From: Acidobacteriaceae bacterium | GTDB lineage: Bacteria > Acidobacteriota > Terriglobia > Terriglobales > Acidobacteriaceae | Length of the DNA stretch: 12,008 nt | NCBI GenBank assembly: GCA_030049955.1 | Contig: JASIJX010000356.1 | Span: 1-12,008 of the forward strand | Direction: 5' to 3' | Shown: in pieces, positions 2,977 through 11,051 of the stretch | Position numbering within the stretch: the stretch's first letter is position 1 | Layout: each line of letters begins with the position of its first letter | Notes under the pieces: generated by a model | The model's database searches: none | Seen by the model: the letters and a program-made list of their open reading frames with translations, nothing else | What the model was told of the DNA's origin: nothing | Program-made: the position numbers and the translations under genes

Positions 2977-3004
2977 AAAGGGCAGCCCACGCGGGCTGCC
3001 CTTT
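2977..3004 (-). terminator. Conserved-stem terminator after DUF899 (copy 1)
   Basis: A perfect 12-bp stem, AAAGGGCAGCCC with GGGCTGCCCTTT, around a 4-nt loop. On the - strand it is followed by TTTGTTCTG, and on the + strand by TTTT. It lies 120 nt past the DUF899 stop codon and could serve as a bidirectional terminator for the convergent + strand gene. The stem sequence is shared with hairpins at 5945-5971 and 9023-9050. Confidence 0.75.
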
Positions 3005-3123: not shown

Positions 3124-3903
3124 CTACCCGACCTCTGCTGGCACGTAGCGTCCCGCTGAGTTGACATGCCCGCCTGCTTCATAACGGTCATGATGTCGCA
3201 CCCAATCTGCCAAGGTGAAGGTAGGGCCATTCTCGTTTCTGCCCTTCGGCGTGAGATCCAGGTAAAAGTAGGTAGTCAATCCCAGTTCGTCACCGCGCGC
3301 ATAGCAGGAATAGGTGTGAAAGATATCGCCGGCCGGGTCCTTGACGAAGACGCTGACGCCGGAGACTTCTTCGCTGGGGTATGGCAAATCGCGCTCCTCA
3401 AAGTTGTAGAAGACTTTGCCGCGTGCAAGATCGTCCTTTGTAAAGGACACGTGATAGTCGAAATTGAAATCGTTGGCAAAGGAAGAAACCCACTTGAAGC
3501 GCCAGCCCATACGCTTGCGGAATGCCTCGATCTCAGTCAGGGGAGCGCGTGAAACGGCGACATAGGTGACATCGTGATGCTCCAGGTGAGTGAGGGCGCC
3601 TTCGACGTGGTCGGAGCCAAAGGAGCAGCCGACACAGCCCTCCTTCCAGCCGGGACCGAACATAAAATGGCGGACGACGAGTTGGCTGCGCCCGTCAAAG
3701 AGGTCCGCGAGACTCACTTTGCCCTGTGGGCCGTCGAAGAGATAATTCTTCTCGACTCTGACCCGTGGAAGCTCGCGCCGAAGAGCGCGGACGGCGTCGT
3801 ACTCGCGGGTGAGGGCCTTCTCTTTGGCCAGCAGTTCTCTGCGGGCCGCCAGCCATTCTTCACGCGACACTGCTTTCGGGGTTGCTGCTGCGGTATTAGA
3901 CAT
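3124..3903 (-). CDS. DUF899 family thioredoxin-like protein
   Basis: A 259-residue cytoplasmic protein of the DUF899 family, which has a thioredoxin-like fold and no firmly established substrate. Visible family features are an N-terminal helical part (SREEWLAARRELLAKEKA, residues 13-30), RVEKNYLFDG, a beta-strand plus CxxC region (FGPGWKEGCVGCSF, cysteines C90 and C93) that sits where thioredoxins keep their redox centre, then VSRAPLTEIEAFRKRMGW, FNFDYHVSF and a C-terminal YFYLDLTPKGRNE segment. The ATG at 3903 is preceded by GGGAGAG. Its first 8 nt (ATGTCTAA) contain the stop codon of the CPFC small-membrane-protein gene upstream, so the two are translationally coupled. Both probably depend on the ECF-type promoter at 4105-4131. 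A redox or detoxification role is inferred from the cysteines and the neighbours only. Confidence 0.88.
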   Translation of the reverse strand: MSNTAAATPKAVSREEWLAARRELLAKEKALTREYDAVRALRRELPRVRVEKNYLFDGPQGKVSLADLFDGRSQLVVRHFMFGPGWKEGCVGCSFGSDHVEGALTHLEHHDVTYVAVSRAPLTEIEAFRKRMGWRFKWVSSFANDFNFDYHVSFTKDDLARGKVFYNFEERDLPYPSEEVSGVSVFVKDPAGDIFHTYSCYARGDELGLTTYFYLDLTPKGRNENGPTFTLADWVRHHDRYEAGGHVNSAGRYVPAEVG

Positions 3904-4051
3904 CTTTCTCTCTCCCTTCGTCTGAGTTGGAAACCGTTGCTGCTGCTTTATTGGGGTTGCGGCGAAGTTTCAACGCCAGTGCTGCGAGACCTCCCGTTGA
4001 GGTTGCACTGATTGCGGCCAGCGCCAGCGTTGACCAGCAAAAAGGACACAT
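3896..4051 (-). CDS. Small CPFC membrane protein (51 aa), coupled to DUF899
   Basis: A 51-residue ORF running from the ATG at 4051 to a TAA at 3896. It has a strong ribosome site, GGGAGG, about 5 nt before the ATG. The product opens with MCPFCW, giving a CxxC pair at residues 2 and 5. A single probable membrane helix follows (about residues 7-27, ending GGLAALAL), then a basic stop (KLRR) and a polar tail. The last codons overlap the DUF899 start by 8 nt, a classic sign of a co-translated pair. It sits 96 nt downstream of the sigma factor gene, and that gap holds an ECF-type promoter. I do not know a named function. I recall similar very short CPxC-opening membrane proteins in other genomes but cannot verify that here. 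A redox or metal-linked partner of DUF899 at the membrane is inference. Confidence 0.75.
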   Translation of the reverse strand: MCPFCWSTLALAAISATSTGGLAALALKLRRNPNKAAATVSNSDEGREKDV

Positions 4052-4104: not shown

Positions 4105-4131
4105 AACGGGTGAAGCAGGATGATTTCGACA
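4105..4131 (-). promoter_or_regulatory. ECF-type promoter of the CPFC-DUF899 unit
   Basis: On the - strand: TGTCGA (4131-4126), a 17-nt spacer, then CGTT (4108-4105). The start codon at 4051 lies about 54 nt downstream of the -10. The -35 extends to TGTCGAAAT, identical over 9 nt to the promoter at 5798-5824, with the same spacer length. TGTCGA as the -35 matches what I recall for ECF42 sigma factors. Confidence 0.65.
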
Positions 4132-4147
4132 GGGACGGCGAAGAAAA

Positions 4148-5383
4148 TCAGCCTCGTTTATTGAGCAGGAAATGCCGGATGGCGGGATCGTCTGCCAGGC
4201 CAATGGCGCGATCAAAGGCATCTCGCGCTTCCGCCGTGTTTCCAAGGCGCTCGAGAAGATGAGCGCGCACCGCCCAGTAAGGCTGATATGCGGATGCTGC
4301 CTGAAGATCGATGGCGTTCAGCGCAGCCAGTCCGGCCTCCGCCCCACCCGCCTCGCCGAGCGCTGCCGCGTATCCGGTGCTCACTCCGAGCGAGGGGTGG
4401 ATGCGGAGGAGCTGACCATAGAAGGCTACAATGGCAGGCCACTCAGTACGGCGGCCGTGCGCTCGTTCCGCATGGACAGACTGAATTGCGGCCTCAAGCT
4501 GAAAGCGTCCGATGCAACGGCGTTCCGCAGCTTCGGCCAGCAAACGTTCTGCCTCCTCAATCAGCGGAAGCGACCACTGCCGCGAGTCCTGCTCGGAGAG
4601 AGGAATGTACTGGCCTGCGAATCCGCGCCGCGCCGCGCGACGAGCTTCACAGTGCAGCATAAGCGCCAGCAGCCCGCGCACCTCGGGCTCATCTGGCATC
4701 AGGTGCAGCAGCACCCGCGCAAGCCAGATCGCCTCTTCGGCAAGTTCGCGCCCGCGCTCGCTTGCCCCGGCCATGTCATCCCATCCAATGCCAAAGGCAG
4801 CATAGATGGCTTCGAGGACTGCATCCAGGCGGCTGGGCAACTCGCTCTTCTGGGGGATTTCAAAAGGAACGCCGGCCTCGCGAATGCGGCCCTTGGCGCG
4901 CACCAGCCGCTGCCCCATGGTTGACGCCGGAACAAGGAAGGCCTGCGCGATGCGGGCCGCCTCGAGGCCCAATACCGCCTGAAGCATGAGCGGTGTATGC
5001 ATGTCCGCGCTGATTTTTGGATGGGCGCAGGCAAAGAGCAACTTCAGGCGCTCATCCGGAAACTCCGGCGCAGCTGGGGCCTCAGCGCCGTTCGTTCTCA
5101 TCAGGGTTAACGTGTGCTCGCTGGCCAGCACGACATTCTCATGGCGCACGCGATCGATGATCCGGTGGCGCGCTGTGGTCAGCAGCCAGGCTTCCGGTTT
5201 TTGTGGAACGCCATCGCGCGGCCATGCCGTAAGCGCCGCCAACAACGCCTCGCTAAGAGCATCCTCTGCGCTGGCCAGATCGTGCGTGTGCGCCGCAAGA
5301 TAGGCAACAAGGCGGCCGTAGGATTCTCGAGCGATCCGTTCGACAGCGCGATGCGTCCACTCCTGATTGTTGTCGTCGCTCAT
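4148..5383 (-). CDS. ECF42-type RNA polymerase sigma factor with C-terminal helical extension
   Basis: A 411-residue sigma factor, about twice the length of an ordinary ECF sigma. Region 2 spans about residues 20-82 (SYGRLVAYLA, ASAEDALSEALLAAL, then KPEAWLLTTARHRIIDRVRH). Region 4 spans about 110-170 (ERLKLLFACAHP, then an HTH ending MGQRLVRAKGRIREA). The remaining 240 residues form the extension typical of this group (DUF6596 plus TPR-like helices): EAIYAAFGIGW near 191, LALMLHCEARRAAR near 239, RFQLEAAIQSVHA near 293, and a last repeat LLERLGNTAEARDAFDRAI near 376. No anti-sigma gene is adjacent, which suits this group, where the extension is thought to control activity. The ATG overlaps the stop of the DGPF gene as ATGA, so translation is probably coupled. 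It should recognise the two TGTCGA promoters in this locus, including its own. Confidence 0.92.
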   Translation of the reverse strand: MSDDNNQEWTHRAVERIARESYGRLVAYLAAHTHDLASAEDALSEALLAALTAWPRDGVPQKPEAWLLTTARHRIIDRVRHENVVLASEHTLTLMRTNGAEAPAAPEFPDERLKLLFACAHPKISADMHTPLMLQAVLGLEAARIAQAFLVPASTMGQRLVRAKGRIREAGVPFEIPQKSELPSRLDAVLEAIYAAFGIGWDDMAGASERGRELAEEAIWLARVLLHLMPDEPEVRGLLALMLHCEARRAARRGFAGQYIPLSEQDSRQWSLPLIEEAERLLAEAAERRCIGRFQLEAAIQSVHAERAHGRRTEWPAIVAFYGQLLRIHPSLGVSTGYAAALGEAGGAEAGLAALNAIDLQAASAYQPYWAVRAHLLERLGNTAEARDAFDRAIGLADDPAIRHFLLNKRG

Positions 5384-5748
5384 TCCTCAATCCGCCGCTT
5401 TGTTTCAGGCGCCAGAGGGCGAACCTCTACGGATCCCACAGTGACCGCGGGGCACCGTGCCGCCCATTCGAGAGCCACATCGCGAGACGGGAGTTCCAGA
5501 AGGATAACTCCCGCTAGTTGCTCTTTGGTGTCGGCATATGGGCCATCCTGTACGCGGCGGGTCCCGTTCCGTACTGCAACTGTTGCTCCGGAGTGAGGAA
5601 GTTCGAGCGGATTTCCCCCAAGGTAGATTCCCGCTTCAAGCATTGATTTGTAGTAAGCCCGCCAGGCTCCGCGATAGGGGTCGGGATCCTCGTTATTGCG
5701 CATGGCAAAGGCTTCGGGCGATTCATAGATCAGCAGGGCGAATTGCAT
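5380..5748 (-). CDS. YCII-related DGPF domain protein
   Basis: A 122-residue protein of the YCII/DGPF family (ferredoxin-like fold). The family opening MQFALLIYESPE is followed by the signature DGPYADTKEQLAG (residues 68-80), the version of the DGPF motif found in this group, and a C-terminal VGSVEVRPL strand. The start at 5748 has AAGGAG (5759-5754), 5 nt away. It is the first gene of a two-gene operon with the ECF42 sigma factor, which it overlaps by 4 nt (ATGA). DGPF genes next to ECF42 sigma factors are a well-known pairing. The biochemical role of DGPF proteins is not settled; small-molecule binding or an effector of the sigma factor are both possible. An ECF-type promoter lies 50 nt upstream. 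Confidence 0.92.
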   Translation of the reverse strand: MQFALLIYESPEAFAMRNNEDPDPYRGAWRAYYKSMLEAGIYLGGNPLELPHSGATVAVRNGTRRVQDGPYADTKEQLAGVILLELPSRDVALEWAARCPAVTVGSVEVRPLAPETKRRIEE

Positions 5749-5797
5749 GGGGTCTCCTTAACTTGAGATCGAATGCGTTAGTGATCATCCTACTGGT

Positions 5798-5824
5798 GAC
5801 GGATGAGAGGGTGGTATTTCGACA
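5798..5824 (-). promoter_or_regulatory. ECF-type promoter of the DGPF-sigma operon (probable autoregulation)
   Basis: On the - strand: TGTCGA (5824-5819), a 17-nt spacer, then CGTC (5801-5798). The start codon at 5748 lies 49 nt downstream of the -10. The spacer, the extended TGTCGAAAT and the distance to the gene closely match the promoter at 4105-4131, so one sigma factor, most simply the ECF42 encoded here, should read both. Confidence 0.7.
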
Positions 5825-5944: not shown

Positions 5945-5971
5945 AAAGGCAGCCCACTCGGACTGCCCTTT
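5945..5971 (-). terminator. Conserved-stem terminator after acr3 (copy 2)
   Basis: On the - strand: AAAGGGCAGTCC, loop GAGT, then GGGCTGCC-TTT, followed by CTTGTTTTT. It is a degenerate copy of the hairpins at 2977-3004 and 9023-9050, with one base missing and one mismatch. It begins 31 nt after the acr3 stop and ends the ars operon. Confidence 0.75.
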
Positions 5972-6001: not shown

Positions 6002-7090
6002 TCAAACCGACCGGGCGCCGGTAGCACAGAACCCTTCTATCTCTGCAGATTCCGGGCTCACGAAGTACCGGCGCTGGAAGTGCAGAGCTAGATTAACAAG
6101 CGCGATCATTACGGGCACTTCGACCAGAGGACCGATTACCGCCGCGAACGCCGCGCCGGAATTAATGCCAAACACCGATACGGCCACAGCGATCGCCAGT
6201 TCGAAGTTATTTGAGGCAGCCGTAAACGAGAGCGTTGTCGTCTTCGAGTAGTCGGCGCCAAGCTTTCGGCCCATGTAAAACGACACCAGGAACATCACCA
6301 CAAAGTAGATCAAGAGCGGTAGTGCGATCCTGAGCACGTCCAAAGGCAGACGCACGATGTACCCGCCCTTGAGAGAAAACATCACCACAATGGTGAATAG
6401 CAGGGCAACGAGCGTCATTGGCGCGACTCGCGGCACAAAATTCCGGTCGTACCATTCGCGCCCTTTCGCTCGGACCAGCGCCGTGCGAGTCAGAAAGCCT
6501 GCGATAAACGGAATGCCGAGATAAATGAAAACGCTCTTTGCGATCTCGCCGATGGAGACGTTGACCGTGGCGCCGCGCAGGCCGAACCATCCGGGTAGCA
6601 CTGTGATGAACACCCAGGAGTAAACCGAGTAGAAGAAAACCTGAAAGAGCGAATTGAACGCCACCAAACCGGCTGCGTATTGCGTGTCGCCTTTCGCCAG
6701 TTCGTTCCACACGATTACCATGGCGATGCAGCGCGCCAATCCAATCATGATGAGGCCGGCCATGTACTCCGGATATCCGCGAAGGAACATGATGGCAAGC
6801 ACGAACATCAAAACCGGCCCGATCAGCCAGTTCTGCGCCAGCGACAGCGCTAGAACGCGCTTGTTGCGGAAGACCTCGTGCAGTTCTTCGTATCGCACCC
6901 GCGTGAACGGCGGGTACATCATCAGGATCAGTCCCGCCGCAATGGGCACAGACGTTGTGCCGATGCTGAAGCGATTCAGAAACGGCACGACGCCGGGAGC
7001 AAGCCAACCCAGCGCAATGCCCAGAACCATCGCGGCGAAGATCCATCCCGTCAGGTAACGATCCAGAAAAGACAACCGGCTCTTCTTCAC
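6002..7090 (-). CDS. acr3: Acr3 family arsenite efflux transporter
   Basis: A 362-residue integral membrane protein of the ACR3 (BART superfamily) type, with about ten hydrophobic helices. It exports arsenite from the cytoplasm using the proton-motive force. The diagnostic residues are visible: a cysteine in the fourth helix (C121 in [13 protein letters not shown]), the [14 protein letters not shown] segment (about 291-304) and a glutamate in the last helix region (E324 in [13 protein letters not shown]), both known to be needed in ACR3 proteins. It starts with GTG at 7090, with AGGAGG overlapping the arsC stop codon, and follows arsC after 8 nt. It is the last gene of arsM-arsC-acr3. The length is slightly longer than a typical bacterial Acr3 because of a short C-terminal tail (about 345-362). 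Confidence 0.95.
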
Positions 7091-7098
7091 GCTTCCTC

Positions 7099-7590
7099 CT
7101 ACGACTGGCCTATCCGGTCGATTTCGCGCTTGATCGCCATCTCCTCAAGCGTCGCGAGCGGCAGCGAGAGAAACAGCCCAATTCTGCGGTCGAGCGCAGT
7201 ATAGGCATCACGAAACGCGCGGGCGATTTCCTCGGGACTCCCTTTAACCGCCGCAGGATCAGGAATACCCCAGTGCGCTGTCATCGGCTGCCCTGGCCAG
7301 TAAGGGCACTGCTCTTTCGCCGCGTTGTCGCACACCGTAAAGACGAAGTCCAGCGTCGGCGCCCCCGGCCGCGAGAACTCGTCCCACGATTTGCTGCGCA
7401 GCCCCGCCGTCGGCAGCCCGGCCGATTCGATCTGCCCGAGCGCTTCCGCGCGCGGCTGTCCGGTGGGATGACTGCCCGCGCTGTAAGCCGTAAACCTTCC
7501 CTTCCCTTTATGGTTCAGGATGGCCTCGGCCATGATTGAGCGCGCCGAGTTGCCTGTGCAGAGAAACAGAACGTTGTAATGATCAGCCAT
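7099..7590 (-). CDS. arsC: Arsenate reductase, low-molecular-weight phosphatase type
   Basis: A 163-residue ArsC of the LMW protein tyrosine phosphatase family, which reduces arsenate to arsenite in the cytoplasm. The P-loop CTGNSARS starts at C11, the nucleophile. The redox cysteines follow as C87 (FTVCDNAA) and C95 (EQCPYWPG). The general acid aspartate is D111 in WGIPDPA. Three cysteines in this arrangement point to a disulfide cascade regenerated by thioredoxin or a similar donor; no such gene is in the operon. It lies 5 nt after arsM and 8 nt before acr3, so it is co-transcribed. The product arsenite becomes the substrate of both Acr3 and ArsM. Confidence 0.95.
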
Positions 7591-7595
7591 GGTTG

Positions 7596-8510
7596 TTATT
7601 CCTTTGCTCCCGAATACGCAGGCATGCAGCGGCCTGGCTCGCAGCAGGCGGCTTTGGGCTTATTCGCGCGGATGAAGGCGCTGAAGAACTTCTCGTTCAC
7701 CTTTAGAGCGATGGCATCCACGTCAACGCCAGCCTCGGTAAGGAACTGGTGCGCATCCTCGACGTTATACACTCGCGTCGGCTCGACTGCGGCTTCTTCA
7801 AAGCCTGCCGCGGCCAGCTTCGCCAGGTATTCATTCTCCTCGAGCGCTCCTGCAATGCAGCCAACCCAGAGCAGCATGCTCCTGCGCACCTCTTCCGGCA
7901 CGTTTCCGCGAACCACCACATCGGAAACAGCGAACCGTCCGCCTGGTCTCAACACCCGGAAGGCTTCGTTGAGAACGCGATCTTTGTCGGCGGAGAGATT
8001 GATGACGCAGTTGGAGATGATGACGTCGACAGAACCGTCCGGCAAAGGAATGCTTTCAATCTCTCCTTTCAGGAACTCCACATTCGTCACCCCGGCCTGC
8101 TTCTGGTTCTCGCGCGCCAGCGCCAGCATTTCATCCGTCATATCCAGGCCGTACGCTTTGCCTGTTGGCCCGACGCGCTTGGCCGAGAGCAGCACATCAA
8201 TGCCGCCGCCCGAGCCCAGATCGAGAACGGTCTCGCCGCGCCGAAGATCGATCAGCGCAGTCGGATTGCCGCATCCGAGCGAAGCTCTGACCGCTTTCTC
8301 AGGAATAATCCCGGTTTGATCGGCGTTGTAGAGATTCGTGGTGATCGGATCGCAACAGCGCAAACCCGGGGCCCCCGCGGACAGGTCTTCATGCGCGGGG
8401 TGGAAACCCGAATCGCAACATGCCTGCACGCTGCCGGATTTGGCCACTGCCCGTGCGGCGCTTCCATACTTTTCCTTTACCTGTTCCTGAACGCTGGACG
8501 TCGATTGCAC
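7596..8510 (-). CDS. arsM: Arsenite S-adenosylmethionine methyltransferase
   Basis: A 304-residue SAM-dependent enzyme that methylates arsenite to mono- and dimethyl arsenic species. The SAM site is DLGSGGGID (97-105), with GLDMTDEM at 121-128. The arsenic-binding cysteines of the family are present: C80 (SLGCGNP), C168 (ISNCVINLS) and C218 (WVGCIAGAL), with C52/C53 near the position of the fourth. The N-terminal KEKYGSAAR is also typical. It ends in extra paired cysteines (C289-C290 and C295). The start is GTG at 8510 with only a weak AGGG site; no better in-frame start exists. It is the first gene of the operon, under a TTGACA-17-TACATT promoter (8540-8568) that overlaps the ArsR operator. 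Confidence 0.95.
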
Positions 8511-8539
8511 GATGAGCCCTCATCGCATACGCTAAGGCG

Positions 8540-8568
8540 AATGTATTCTCACTGGACACATCTGTCAA
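8540..8568 (-). promoter_or_regulatory. Promoter of arsM-arsC-acr3
   Basis: A perfect -35 TTGACA (8568-8563) on the - strand, a 17-nt spacer and a -10 TACATT (8545-8540). The expected start near 8533 gives a leader of about 22 nt. The -35 lies inside the TCAAT/ATTGA operator. Confidence 0.7.
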
Positions 8569-8580
8569 TACGTATATGAT
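8553..8580 (+). promoter_or_regulatory. Promoter of arsR, implying a leaderless transcript
   Basis: TGGACA (8553-8558), a 16-nt spacer, then TATGAT (8575-8580). Transcription would begin about 7 nt later, at the arsR ATG (8587). GAGG at 8582-8585 is only 1 nt from the ATG, too close to work as a ribosome site. The -10 lies inside the operator. Confidence 0.65.
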
Positions 8581-8583
8581 TGA
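8565..8583. promoter_or_regulatory. Probable ArsR operator
   Basis: TCAATACGTATATGATTGA: perfect 5-bp arms TCAAT and ATTGA around 9 nt, with an inner palindrome ATACGTAT. The A/T-rich dyad fits ArsR/SmtB family sites. It covers the -35 of arsM and the -10 of arsR, so one dimer could block both. Confidence 0.65.
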
Positions 8584-8586
8584 GGC

Positions 8587-8985
8587 ATGGCGCGCTTCGA
8601 TCTGGCACTTCTGTTCGCAGCTTTGGCGGACCGCACCCGGCTCCGGTTGCTCAACCTGATGGATGGACGCGAAGTATGCGTCTGCTATTTTGTGGAGGTT
8701 CTGGGCCAGAGCCAGCCGAAGATCTCCCGGCATCTCGCCTATCTTCGCCGCGCCGGCATCGTCTCGGCTCGCCGGGAGGGCAAATGGATGCACTATAAAA
8801 TCGTCTTTCCGGCCCACGCCGCAGCGGTCCAGATCTTGCAAGCGACGCTGGCAGCTTTAGGAACGGAGAAGGAATTGATCGCCGATCGTGCACGATTCGA
8901 CAAATGTTGCTGCGCACCGAAAAGCAACTCCGCGCTCAACGGCGCACCGCTGCCTGTCCAGCTTGGGAAAGAAATCTGCTGCTAG
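8587..8985 (+). CDS. arsR: ArsR family arsenic-responsive repressor
   Basis: A 132-residue winged-helix repressor expected to leave DNA when it binds As(III). The family core is clear: FAALADRTRLRLLNLM (10-25), REVCVCYFVEVLG (28-40), the recognition helix QPKISRHLAYLRRAG (43-57), and the wing EGKWMHY (64-70). C31 and C33 form the CxC of the classical alpha-3 site, but the third cysteine of the E. coli arrangement is replaced by V36. The C-terminal tail instead carries C107-C108-C109 and ends with C131-C132. The ATG at 8587 is the first start after an in-frame stop (TGA at 8581) and appears leaderless. It is divergent from the arsM operon. Confidence 0.95.
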   Translation: MARFDLALLFAALADRTRLRLLNLMDGREVCVCYFVEVLGQSQPKISRHLAYLRRAGIVSARREGKWMHYKIVFPAHAAAVQILQATLAALGTEKELIADRARFDKCCCAPKSNSALNGAPLPVQLGKEICC

Positions 8986-9072: not shown

Positions 9073-10875
9073 TTACGGCAGGTAATACCGGAACGACGTA
9101 AACACCATGTTGTCGGTGCCGTATGCGCCGTTGCCCGGGTTCGCAGTGCCACCATTGCCCGACCACAAATCGCGGCGGATGTCGCTGTACTGGACGCCCT
9201 GGCGCAGGCGGCCATGCGGACCGTTGATCAGGTTGAACCAGTAGCCCGCCGTGAACTCCTGCACGTCCTTCGTGTTGGCGCTGCAGCTGCTCGGAGCGAT
9301 TGGGGCAGCGCCCGTGGCGCCGGCAGTCGGCGAGCCAGGCTCAACAAGGCAACCCGTCATTGCCACGCTGCGCGTGCCGTAGCCCACCTGCGTGGTGCCG
9401 CTCAACACGTAGTCGCGATCGATTTCGTCGCCGCCGTAGTTGAAGTAAAGGTTCAGCCGGTCGGTCGGATTCAGCTCAACCGTGCTCAGGCCGGAGAAGC
9501 CGTGAAGCGGAGAAAGCTGGCCGTCCGGACGAACGGTCACGTCGGCAATCGTCGACGAGCCGTAGCGGCCTACTCCCTGGCCCCACAATCCTTTCAGGCC
9601 GATCGTGACTTTCTTATCGAACAGCGGGCCGCGGAATCCGCCGCCGATGCCGGCGCCGATTTCCTTGTCGTTATAGGCTCCTACCGAGCTTCCGCTCGTA
9701 GGATAGACGCGATCGCGGAAGTTGCGCTCGATGCCGAACAGTTCCCAGTGGCCCCAGCCCGGCTCAAGAGCGGCCTTCAAAATAAAGTCCGGCGTGTAGT
9801 TGAACGAGTAGTTGGCGGTGGTGTTATAGAGGCCGCCGTTGGTCCCGGTCGAACCAAAAAGATAATTGCTCGGCAGATTCTGGCCTGCTGGATTCAGCGT
9901 TTCGGCGTTCTCGACCGAGGCGCCAAGGAAGAACTTGTTGGCGCCCATGCTCACGCGGAAGCTCTCCTGCCGCGCCCACACAAAGCCGGTTTCGTACTGC
10001 GAGTCGATAGTCGACGGCAGAATCTCTGTGCCGCGCAGCAGACCCGTGGTGGTTTCTGTGGCCAGCGACCATCCCTGACCGCCGGAAAACACCCAGCCGC
10101 TGTTCAGGGCCGCCTGGCCCCAGACCTGCCGCTGGCGCAGCGTATAACTGTTCGACTGGTTGTTGTTGGACGTGGTGCCGGAGGAAAGAAAGTCAGCTTC
10201 GTAGTAGCCGGTGAGCCTCACGCTGCGCTCAGCACCGGTGGCGCGCAGTGCGATACGCGACTGCCGGCCGCTGGCGAAGAATTCAGTCAACTGCGCTGCC
10301 TGGGAGTTGTTGAGCGGAATACCGGTGAACGACGTATTGATGTCGCCGCCCGTAGCGCCGCTGCGCCACACGGTTTCAGCCGCCAGAAAGCTGCCCGACG
10401 GCGAAAGCGTAACGCCCTTGTAGTGAATCGCGTCAGGCGACTCCACTTCCTTCTTGAGCGCAACCGTACTGTCCGAGATCGTGCTCGCAAGCGAGGCCTG
10501 ATTCATCTTCAGATCGCTTACCGTGGACTGCAGCGTAGAAACCGCCGCGGAGTTCTCGGTGTACGACTGCTGTTGCTGATCGGCTGCCTGCTGCGCCTTG
10601 GCTGCGGCGGCCTGCGCATCGGCAGCCTGTTGCTGCGCCTGTTTCAACTCAGCGTCCTTCTGTGCCAGATCATTTTTCAGCGAATCAATCTGGCTCTGCA
10701 TCTCCTGGCGCAGCGCGTTGATCTGTTCGCTGATCTGCTCCTGGACCGAAGGCCGAGCCTCCGCCTTGTGGACATGCTTTTGGGCCGCAGGCGCGGCGTC
10801 TCCCGCCTGGGCGTACGAAACAACGGCAGTGGCTGCGAGCAAAGCTGCGGCAGCCGCATGCATGCGATATTTCAT
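9073..10875 (-). CDS. Coiled-coil outer membrane porin-like protein
   Basis: A 600-residue exported protein. I chose the ATG at 10875 because it follows GAGAGAGG at a good distance and opens a signal peptide (MKYRMH, an Ala/Leu core, cleavage after AQA at about residue 24). An in-frame start at 10938 would bury this. Residues about 43-145 form a long coiled coil, rich in Gln and Ala between about 70 and 104, that may act as a periplasmic spacer. The rest (about 150-600) alternates aromatic and polar strands with Gly/Ser/Asn loops, as in a beta barrel, and ends in SFRYYLP with an aromatic close to the C-terminus. One loop near the C-terminus has two cysteines about 22 residues apart (TGCLVEP ... 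PSSCSAN). This build is common in acidobacterial outer membranes. The substrate is unknown. It stands alone, with the hairpin at 9023-9050 after it. Confidence 0.8.
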   Translation of the reverse strand: MKYRMHAAAAALLAATAVVSYAQAGDAAPAAQKHVHKAEARPSVQEQISEQINALRQEMQSQIDSLKNDLAQKDAELKQAQQQAADAQAAAAKAQQAADQQQQSYTENSAAVSTLQSTVSDLKMNQASLASTISDSTVALKKEVESPDAIHYKGVTLSPSGSFLAAETVWRSGATGGDINTSFTGIPLNNSQAAQLTEFFASGRQSRIALRATGAERSVRLTGYYEADFLSSGTTSNNNQSNSYTLRQRQVWGQAALNSGWVFSGGQGWSLATETTTGLLRGTEILPSTIDSQYETGFVWARQESFRVSMGANKFFLGASVENAETLNPAGQNLPSNYLFGSTGTNGGLYNTTANYSFNYTPDFILKAALEPGWGHWELFGIERNFRDRVYPTSGSSVGAYNDKEIGAGIGGGFRGPLFDKKVTIGLKGLWGQGVGRYGSSTIADVTVRPDGQLSPLHGFSGLSTVELNPTDRLNLYFNYGGDEIDRDYVLSGTTQVGYGTRSVAMTGCLVEPGSPTAGATGAAPIAPSSCSANTKDVQEFTAGYWFNLINGPHGRLRQGVQYSDIRRDLWSGNGGTANPGNGAYGTDNMVFTSFRYYLP

Positions 10876-10893
10876 GGAGCCTCTCTCTGTTTT

Positions 10894-10911
10894 TTCAGGA
10901 ATGGTCCTGAA
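10894..10911 (-). repeat. Hairpin in the leader of the porin gene
   Basis: On the + strand TTCAGGAATGGTCCTGAA: 7-bp arms around a 4-nt loop. In the porin transcript it lies about 19 nt before the start codon and just upstream of the GAGAGAGG ribosome site, with only an A-run between. It may be an operator or an RNA-stabilising leader hairpin. Confidence 0.4.
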
Positions 10912-11051
10912 TCGACCCCCGGTGCGGCCTGTTGCCACACACGCGGGCGATCAAGGAATATGGAGCGTTCAGTTTTCATCGCAGGGACGAAAGATGCACT
11001 TGCAGCAGGGGTAGCTTGAACTCTCCCGATAGGCCTAGACTGGCAGCACTT

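Follow-up and report, generated by a model that had tools for sequence, protein, structure and literature searches.

An ECF42-type sigma factor gene in an acidobacterial genome and two matching promoter elements that very probably form a local regulon

We analysed a 12,008 nt stretch of DNA from a member of the Acidobacteriaceae (contig JASIJX010000356.1; hereafter the window) that carries four co-directional genes on the minus strand (Table 1). These encode a YCII/DGPF-family protein, a sigma factor, a mini-protein (termed the CPFC peptide) and a DUF899 protein, with the CPFC gene overlapping the start of the DUF899 gene by 8 nt. A scan of the region for terminator-like hairpins found four where 3.4 are expected in shuffles, and the evidence for terminators is therefore weak, though the two hairpins that flank the cluster have 11 and 12 pairs. 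Directly upstream of this sigma island, on the same strand, lies an arsenic cluster (ArsM, ArsC-like and ACR3) with a divergent ArsR-family gene (window positions 6002-8985). Positions 9073-10938 of the minus strand encode a protein of 621 aa without a Pfam or NCBIfam match at an E value of 0.001; by eye, its start resembles a signal peptide and its N-terminal part a coiled coil.

Table 1. Genes, hairpins and promoter-like elements of the sigma factor cluster, in window coordinates
Feature	Position	Strand	Description
Terminator-like hairpin 3' of DUF899	2977..3004	-	Pattern match, 12 pairs
DUF899 protein, 259 aa	3124..3903	-	PF05988, E 2.1e-93; C90xxC93; thioredoxin-like modelled fold
CPFC mini-protein, 51 aa	3896..4051	-	N-terminal MCPFC, one hydrophobic segment, then a basic stretch
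ECF42-type promoter 2 (candidate), TGTCGA-N17-CGTT	4105..4131	-	TGTCGAAATCATCCTGCTTCACCCGTT (4131-4105), between sigma and CPFC genes; pattern scan, relatives, matrix
ECF42-like sigma factor, 411 aa	4148..5383	-	Region 2, weak region 4, DUF6596; helical, possibly TPR-like C-terminal extension
YCII/DGPF-family gene, 122 aa	5380..5748	-	PF03795, E 1.4e-17; motif here DGPY; 4-nt overlap with sigma start
ECF42-type promoter 1 (candidate), TGTCGA-N17-CGTC	5798..5824	-	TGTCGAAATACCACCCTCTCATCCGTC (5824-5798), ahead of YCII-sigma; pattern scan, relatives, matrix
Terminator-like hairpin between ACR3 gene and promoter 1	5945..5970	-	Pattern match, 11 pairs

A sequence-only reading of this DNA had identified the sigma factor as a member of the ECF42 group paired with a DGPF gene, and its anatomy bears this out: region 2 is present, a YCII/DGPF gene lies directly upstream and the C-terminal extension is long and helical. 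Specifically, region 2 matches Sigma70_r2 above the Pfam cut-off (E 3.4e-12), region 4 matches Sigma70_r4_2 below it (E 0.0013), and the NCBIfam ECF superfamily model covers residues 20-170, below its own cut-off. The extension contains DUF6596 at residues 185-286 (E 1.4e-29), and residues 179-411 are modelled as helices (mean pLDDT 87 for the model overall). A TPR_14 match to the extension falls below cut-off (E 0.0014). Fold comparison of the model returned TPR proteins for the most part at the top and ECF sigma factors lower down, and no match reached E 0.001. In a review, the C-terminal extension of ECF42 factors is described as TPR-rich, about 200 residues long and essential for activity, and a YCII-domain gene as lying nearby (PMC8999054). 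A protein search with the sigma factor yielded 59 related loci (referred to by number below), of which 15 are at 60% identity or more, and a YCII match is present in 58 of the 59, with none in L054. The closest relatives come mostly from acidobacterial genomes, and among 200 genomes of the class, 93 encode a relative of the sigma factor at E 1e-40 or better.

The −35 element of the ECF42 group has the consensus TGTCGA. According to the sequence-only reading, the same element occurs twice on the minus strand, each time with a 17-nt spacer from TGTCGA to CGTY, and we found both occurrences exactly as written and the spacer in each. The start-codon distances given with them, 49 and 54 nt, stand for the YCII gene (49 nt) and change for the CPFC gene, which begins 53 nt from the last base of CGTY; the earlier pair of figures mixed two ways of counting. 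A third match to a loose version of the pattern, TGTCGA-N(13-20)-CGTY, lies at 8031-8004 and was rejected, having an 18-nt spacer and a position inside the arsM reading frame. Also, a conserved hairpin was suspected by eye in the CPFC leader, from the −10 element to the ribosome site. RNAalifold on 13 CPFC leaders placed its five pairs elsewhere, and at one pair a single sequence has both partners changed; the hairpin is for this reason not claimed.

The frequency of the motif was compared with that in 400 dinucleotide shuffles of the window. As had been anticipated, TGTCGA alone is expected several times in 12 kb (8 seen, shuffle mean 6.3). The full pattern TGTCGA-N17-CGTY is seen twice against a shuffle mean of 0.065, and one shuffle of the 400 reached two. 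The shared 9-mer at equal spacing, TGTCGAAAT-N14-CGTY, also seen twice, has a mean of 0.005, and no shuffle reached two, in agreement with the earlier claim that it lies beyond chance. Furthermore, a matrix was trained exclusively on sites of relatives, without any window sequence; of the 32 sites listed, 31 are distinct, and they themselves had been chosen by a pattern. It has a two-block build with a poorly conserved middle, and it ranks the two elements first and second of all window positions on both strands (28.3 and 28.0; third best, −3.3). The training sites score from 27.5 with a median of 36.2, which places both window sites at the low end of the range. The CPFC site departs from the training sites in having CGTT rather than CGTC.

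The sequence-only reading had staked the promoter assignment on conservation of the motif upstream of orthologues, and this is what we found, promoter 1 being present in 13 of 13 close loci and the second site in 11 of 15 by pattern. The promoter 1 count is out of 13 because L001 and L038 come without upstream sequence, and the 13 are not all independent, since L009 and L011 are near-identical there. Specifically, TGTCGAA-N16-CGTC stands ahead of the YCII gene in every one of these loci, always with the N17 spacer. More distant loci carry variants at promoter 1, including TGTCGAAATG...CGTC in Variovorax (L028), TGTCGA...CGAC in Nocardia (L055) and, by eye, TGTCGA-N17-CCTC in Rhizobium loci such as L016. 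In an ECF42-like Terriglobia clade at 40% sigma identity (L135, L139, L140, L142, L144, L147-L149), a site with a spacer of 16 or 17 lies 3' of the sigma gene, ahead of YCII matches. This site reads TGTCGA...CGAC, and in L135, L140, L147 and L149 it forms the imperfect palindrome TGTCGAA...TTCGAC.

A scan of whole genomes for the motif, proposed earlier as a check, was carried out with the perfect consensus TGTCGAA-N(15-17)-CGTCA in the genomes of 12 relatives. Of 80 matches, 28 have N16, equivalent to the 17-nt spacer, and 23 of these 28 are on contigs with a sigma cluster. In contrast, none of the 52 with a spacing off by one (N15 or N17; 25 and 27 at the two spacings) is so placed. A reversed control pattern gave 31 matches over three spacings, or about 10 per spacing. 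For perfect-consensus sites in these 12 genomes, the earlier description of the regulon as ‘local’ holds, and we infer that it applies to the window organism's own genome. The elements could instead belong to a wide regulon of which the cluster is a small part, with the other five N16 matches among its members. The scan took perfect-consensus sites, with TGTCGA as the −35, which leaves this alternative some room. However, the five are fewer than the matches at either neighbouring spacing or per spacing in the reversed control, and all of them coincide at least in part with open frames longer than 120 codons. On reading, none looks like the promoter of a related gene, the least unlikely being L162, which lies ~120 nt ahead of a GTG start. 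We consider a wide regulon unlikely.

By tblastn, nine of the 59 loci have a CPFC gene with DUF899 past the sigma gene, and in all nine the element of the second site is found 51-57 nt ahead of the CPFC start, with TGTAGA as the −35 in four (L003, L006, L007 and L010). TGTAGA also replaces TGTCGA at the CPFC promoter in L091-L094, L150 and L153, and in L150 and L153 it does so at both promoters. L038, by eye, has TGTCGA-N17-CGCC ahead of a CPxC peptide that tblastn had not detected. The sequence of loci L002, L012 and L032, as far as it extends, contains the sigma gene but no second site. In L001, L005, L008 and L156, the site right after the sigma gene precedes a short-chain dehydrogenase gene (Pfam run for L005 and L008); CPFC-DUF899 follows further on with a site of its own in L001, L008 and L156, and the L005 sequence, from the cultured relative Edaphobacter aggregans DSM 19364, ends first. 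Second, divergent DUF899 paralogues (~30% identity to that of the window) occur further downstream in L009, L011, L041 and L154.

CPFC genes that lack a sigma neighbour provide a natural control for this association. A class-wide search with the CPFC peptide gave 32 matches in 29 of 200 genomes. Thirty were obtained as loci, 29 of which have a DUF899 match. L115, which is not a CPFC gene, was dropped and L098 was left out (3 nt of upstream sequence), giving 28 loci. A gene was called sigma-adjacent when a sigma gene lies inside its locus (about 1.5 kb of flank), and sites were sought within 150 nt upstream. The pattern TGT[CA]GA-N17-[CT]GT[CT] is present at six of six sigma-adjacent CPFC genes and at none of the 22 others (Fisher p 2e-6, run with 23 others, L098 included). 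The pattern had been relaxed after the sequences had been seen: the exact pattern of the sequence-only reading fits one of the six, and TGT[CA]GA-N17-CGTY fits five. Four of the six have TGTAGA, and L097 has TGTC as its −10. In the three genomes with both kinds of CPFC gene, the site is at the sigma-adjacent copy in each and at the remote copy in none.

One locus counted as having no site, L113, carries TGTCGA-N16-CGTC ahead of a YCII gene that precedes the CPFC gene, and a 40%-identity sigma gene is ~2 kb away on the contig. YCII, CPFC and DUF899 there stand in a row behind this element (L113 positions 2178-1433, minus strand), a layout that may therefore be a variant of the same arrangement with another gene order. 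CPFC-DUF899 pairs without a sigma gene often lie behind other small genes. Pfam on eight such neighbours from six loci identified AHSA1 three times, an ArsR-type HTH three times, DinB once and YCII once. Comparison of these relatives establishes that both sites exist, that their spacing is fixed and that they are conserved, and it ties the predicted promoter 2 to CPFC-DUF899 pairs that neighbour this sigma gene; in the relatives examined, this putative promoter goes with the sigma gene as neighbour.

The arrangement of the genes would also allow promoter 1 alone to be used, with CPFC-DUF899 transcribed by read-through from the sigma operon past a decayed or unused promoter 2. The four genes point the same way, a pattern scan found no terminator-like hairpin on the minus strand between the sigma and CPFC genes, and the window's second site is the CGTT variant. 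Furthermore, the CPFC gene of L157 (from the L041 genome), some 740 nt past a site, and the second CPFC gene of L152 have no site of their own. These points are countered by the retention of the second site in most close loci and by the matrix, which scores promoter 2 of the window as high as promoter 1. Moreover, where the distance between the sigma and CPFC genes is larger (L001, L008, L154 and L156), the site stays with CPFC, lying ~0.9 kb past the sigma gene in L154. Read-through as the sole route to the second unit is, in our judgement, quite unlikely.

Promoters of this group have been described in Sinorhizobium meliloti. In one study (PMC6180224), overexpression of the ECF42 factor RpoE10 raised two operons 2-fold or more, and the promoters of both read TGTCGG-N17-CGTC, the printed sequence ending 9 nt past CGTC. 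A third promoter, at the YCII gene, is printed as far as CGTC (PMC6180224). The 17-nt spacer and CGTC are found in all three of the printed sequences (PMC6180224). The YCII gene did not rise on overexpression, and the authors suggest that overlap of the motif with the start site could explain the missing response (PMC6180224). In the window, the YCII start codon is 49 nt past the element, and such an obstacle is therefore not evident here. In principle, such a pair of similar sequences might serve any DNA-binding protein, for example as the operator of another regulator, whether repressor or activator. A two-block build with a fixed 17-nt spacer and a poorly conserved middle, a position 49-53 nt ahead of the starts and the match to the promoters published for S. 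meliloti (PMC6180224) speak against an operator, which we regard as very unlikely. Chance resemblance, for which only the commonness of TGTCGA itself could be adduced, is opposed by the shuffles, the matrix rank and the conservation alike and can be set aside as extremely improbable.

The sites, their spacing and conservation, the ECF42 anatomy of the sigma factor and the match to S. meliloti lead us to conclude that the two elements very probably serve as promoters for the ECF42-type sigma factor whose gene lies between them, and that they form a local regulon. Both sites would, on sequence grounds, be used by the sigma factor of the window, which probably activates its own expression. In the mechanism we propose, the sigma factor would first become active, a step whose control is attributed, in this group, to the C-terminal extension. 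RNA polymerase with the active sigma factor bound would then start at promoter 1 and produce more YCII protein and sigma factor, and would start at promoter 2 and produce the CPFC membrane mini-protein and the DUF899 protein.

The proteins of the second unit both have conserved cysteines. C90 and C93 of DUF899 are invariant in 20 of 20 aligned relatives (hand-chosen rows, some from one locus), and in a model of moderate confidence (mean pLDDT 66) the CxxC motif lies between a strand at 74-80 and a helix at 91-108. Foldseek matches the model best to thiol-disulfide oxidoreductases and peroxiredoxins of the PDB (E about 1e-5, query TM about 0.3-0.4); by sequence, no solved structure matched DUF899 with an E value below 0.34. 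A 2010 paper includes one DUF899 sequence among the matches of a peroxiredoxin-like search and assigns the family to the thioredoxin-like clan (PMC3091736). With moderate confidence, DUF899 can be described as a CxxC protein with a predicted thioredoxin-like fold.

The CPFC peptide belongs to a CPxC mini-protein family whose members are about 50 aa long, with MCPxC, one hydrophobic segment and a basic stretch (window 3896-4051, minus strand; L090-L119). Residues M1, C2, P3, C5, G20 and G21 are invariant in 20 of 20 aligned sequences, the rows again hand-chosen. Scoring of 7,995 candidates gave at least 2,445 relatives with an E value of 0.001 or better, and no Pfam domain was found among the 120 relatives listed. 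By the positive-inside rule, the basic side of a membrane segment is cytoplasmic. The basic side of the CPFC peptide should accordingly be cytoplasmic, with the CPFC end predicted to be outside. The motifs and the moderate-confidence model suggest that the CPFC peptide and DUF899 may be the ‘redox pair’ that the sequence-only reading took them for.

A bolder and rather doubtful reading is that Terriglobia ECF42 sigma factors act on a swappable cassette in which the membrane CPxC mini-protein and DUF899 form a membrane thiol relay, and that this relay might report redox state to the C-terminal extension of the sigma factor. In this reading, the pair has an ECF42 promoter when beside the sigma gene and otherwise often lies behind ArsR-type and AHSA1 genes. 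The sigma group (ECF42) and the promoter type were already known; the target pair and its natural control are added here. In the literature searched, which was mostly without subscription papers, we found no paper that names DUF899 or a CPxC peptide among the targets of ECF42 factors. Because its second output is defined, a local regulon of two promoters would provide a short list of ECF42 effectors to test, and the comparison has a built-in control in that the same gene pair occurs with and without the promoter. The CPxC membrane mini-proteins also deserve notice as an unnamed family associated with DUF899.

The system described here resembles the ECF42 group, of which S. venezuelae Sven_0747, P. 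putida ECF-10 and S. meliloti RpoE10 are named representatives, in its long C-terminal extension, its YCII/DGPF gene directly upstream and a two-block promoter with a 17-nt spacer and CGTC. Its targets differ. Here they would be a CPxC mini-protein and DUF899, and the clusters of some relatives also hold short-chain dehydrogenase or AHSA1 genes, whereas the S. meliloti targets are genes with glyoxalase-like and hydrophobic-ligand-binding domains. ECF41 factors are comparable in that their control is attributed to a C-terminal domain fused to the sigma factor and that, in S. meliloti and R. sphaeroides, the factor acts on its own operon. In contrast, that extension is SnoaL-like and the S. meliloti neighbour is a carboxymuconolactone decarboxylase, and the window has a DUF6596/TPR-like extension and a YCII gene. 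Finally, the same mini-protein and DUF899 are paired in other Terriglobia where no sigma gene neighbours them. All 22 of these cases lack an ECF42 site within 150 nt, and several lie behind ArsR-type, AHSA1 or DinB genes.
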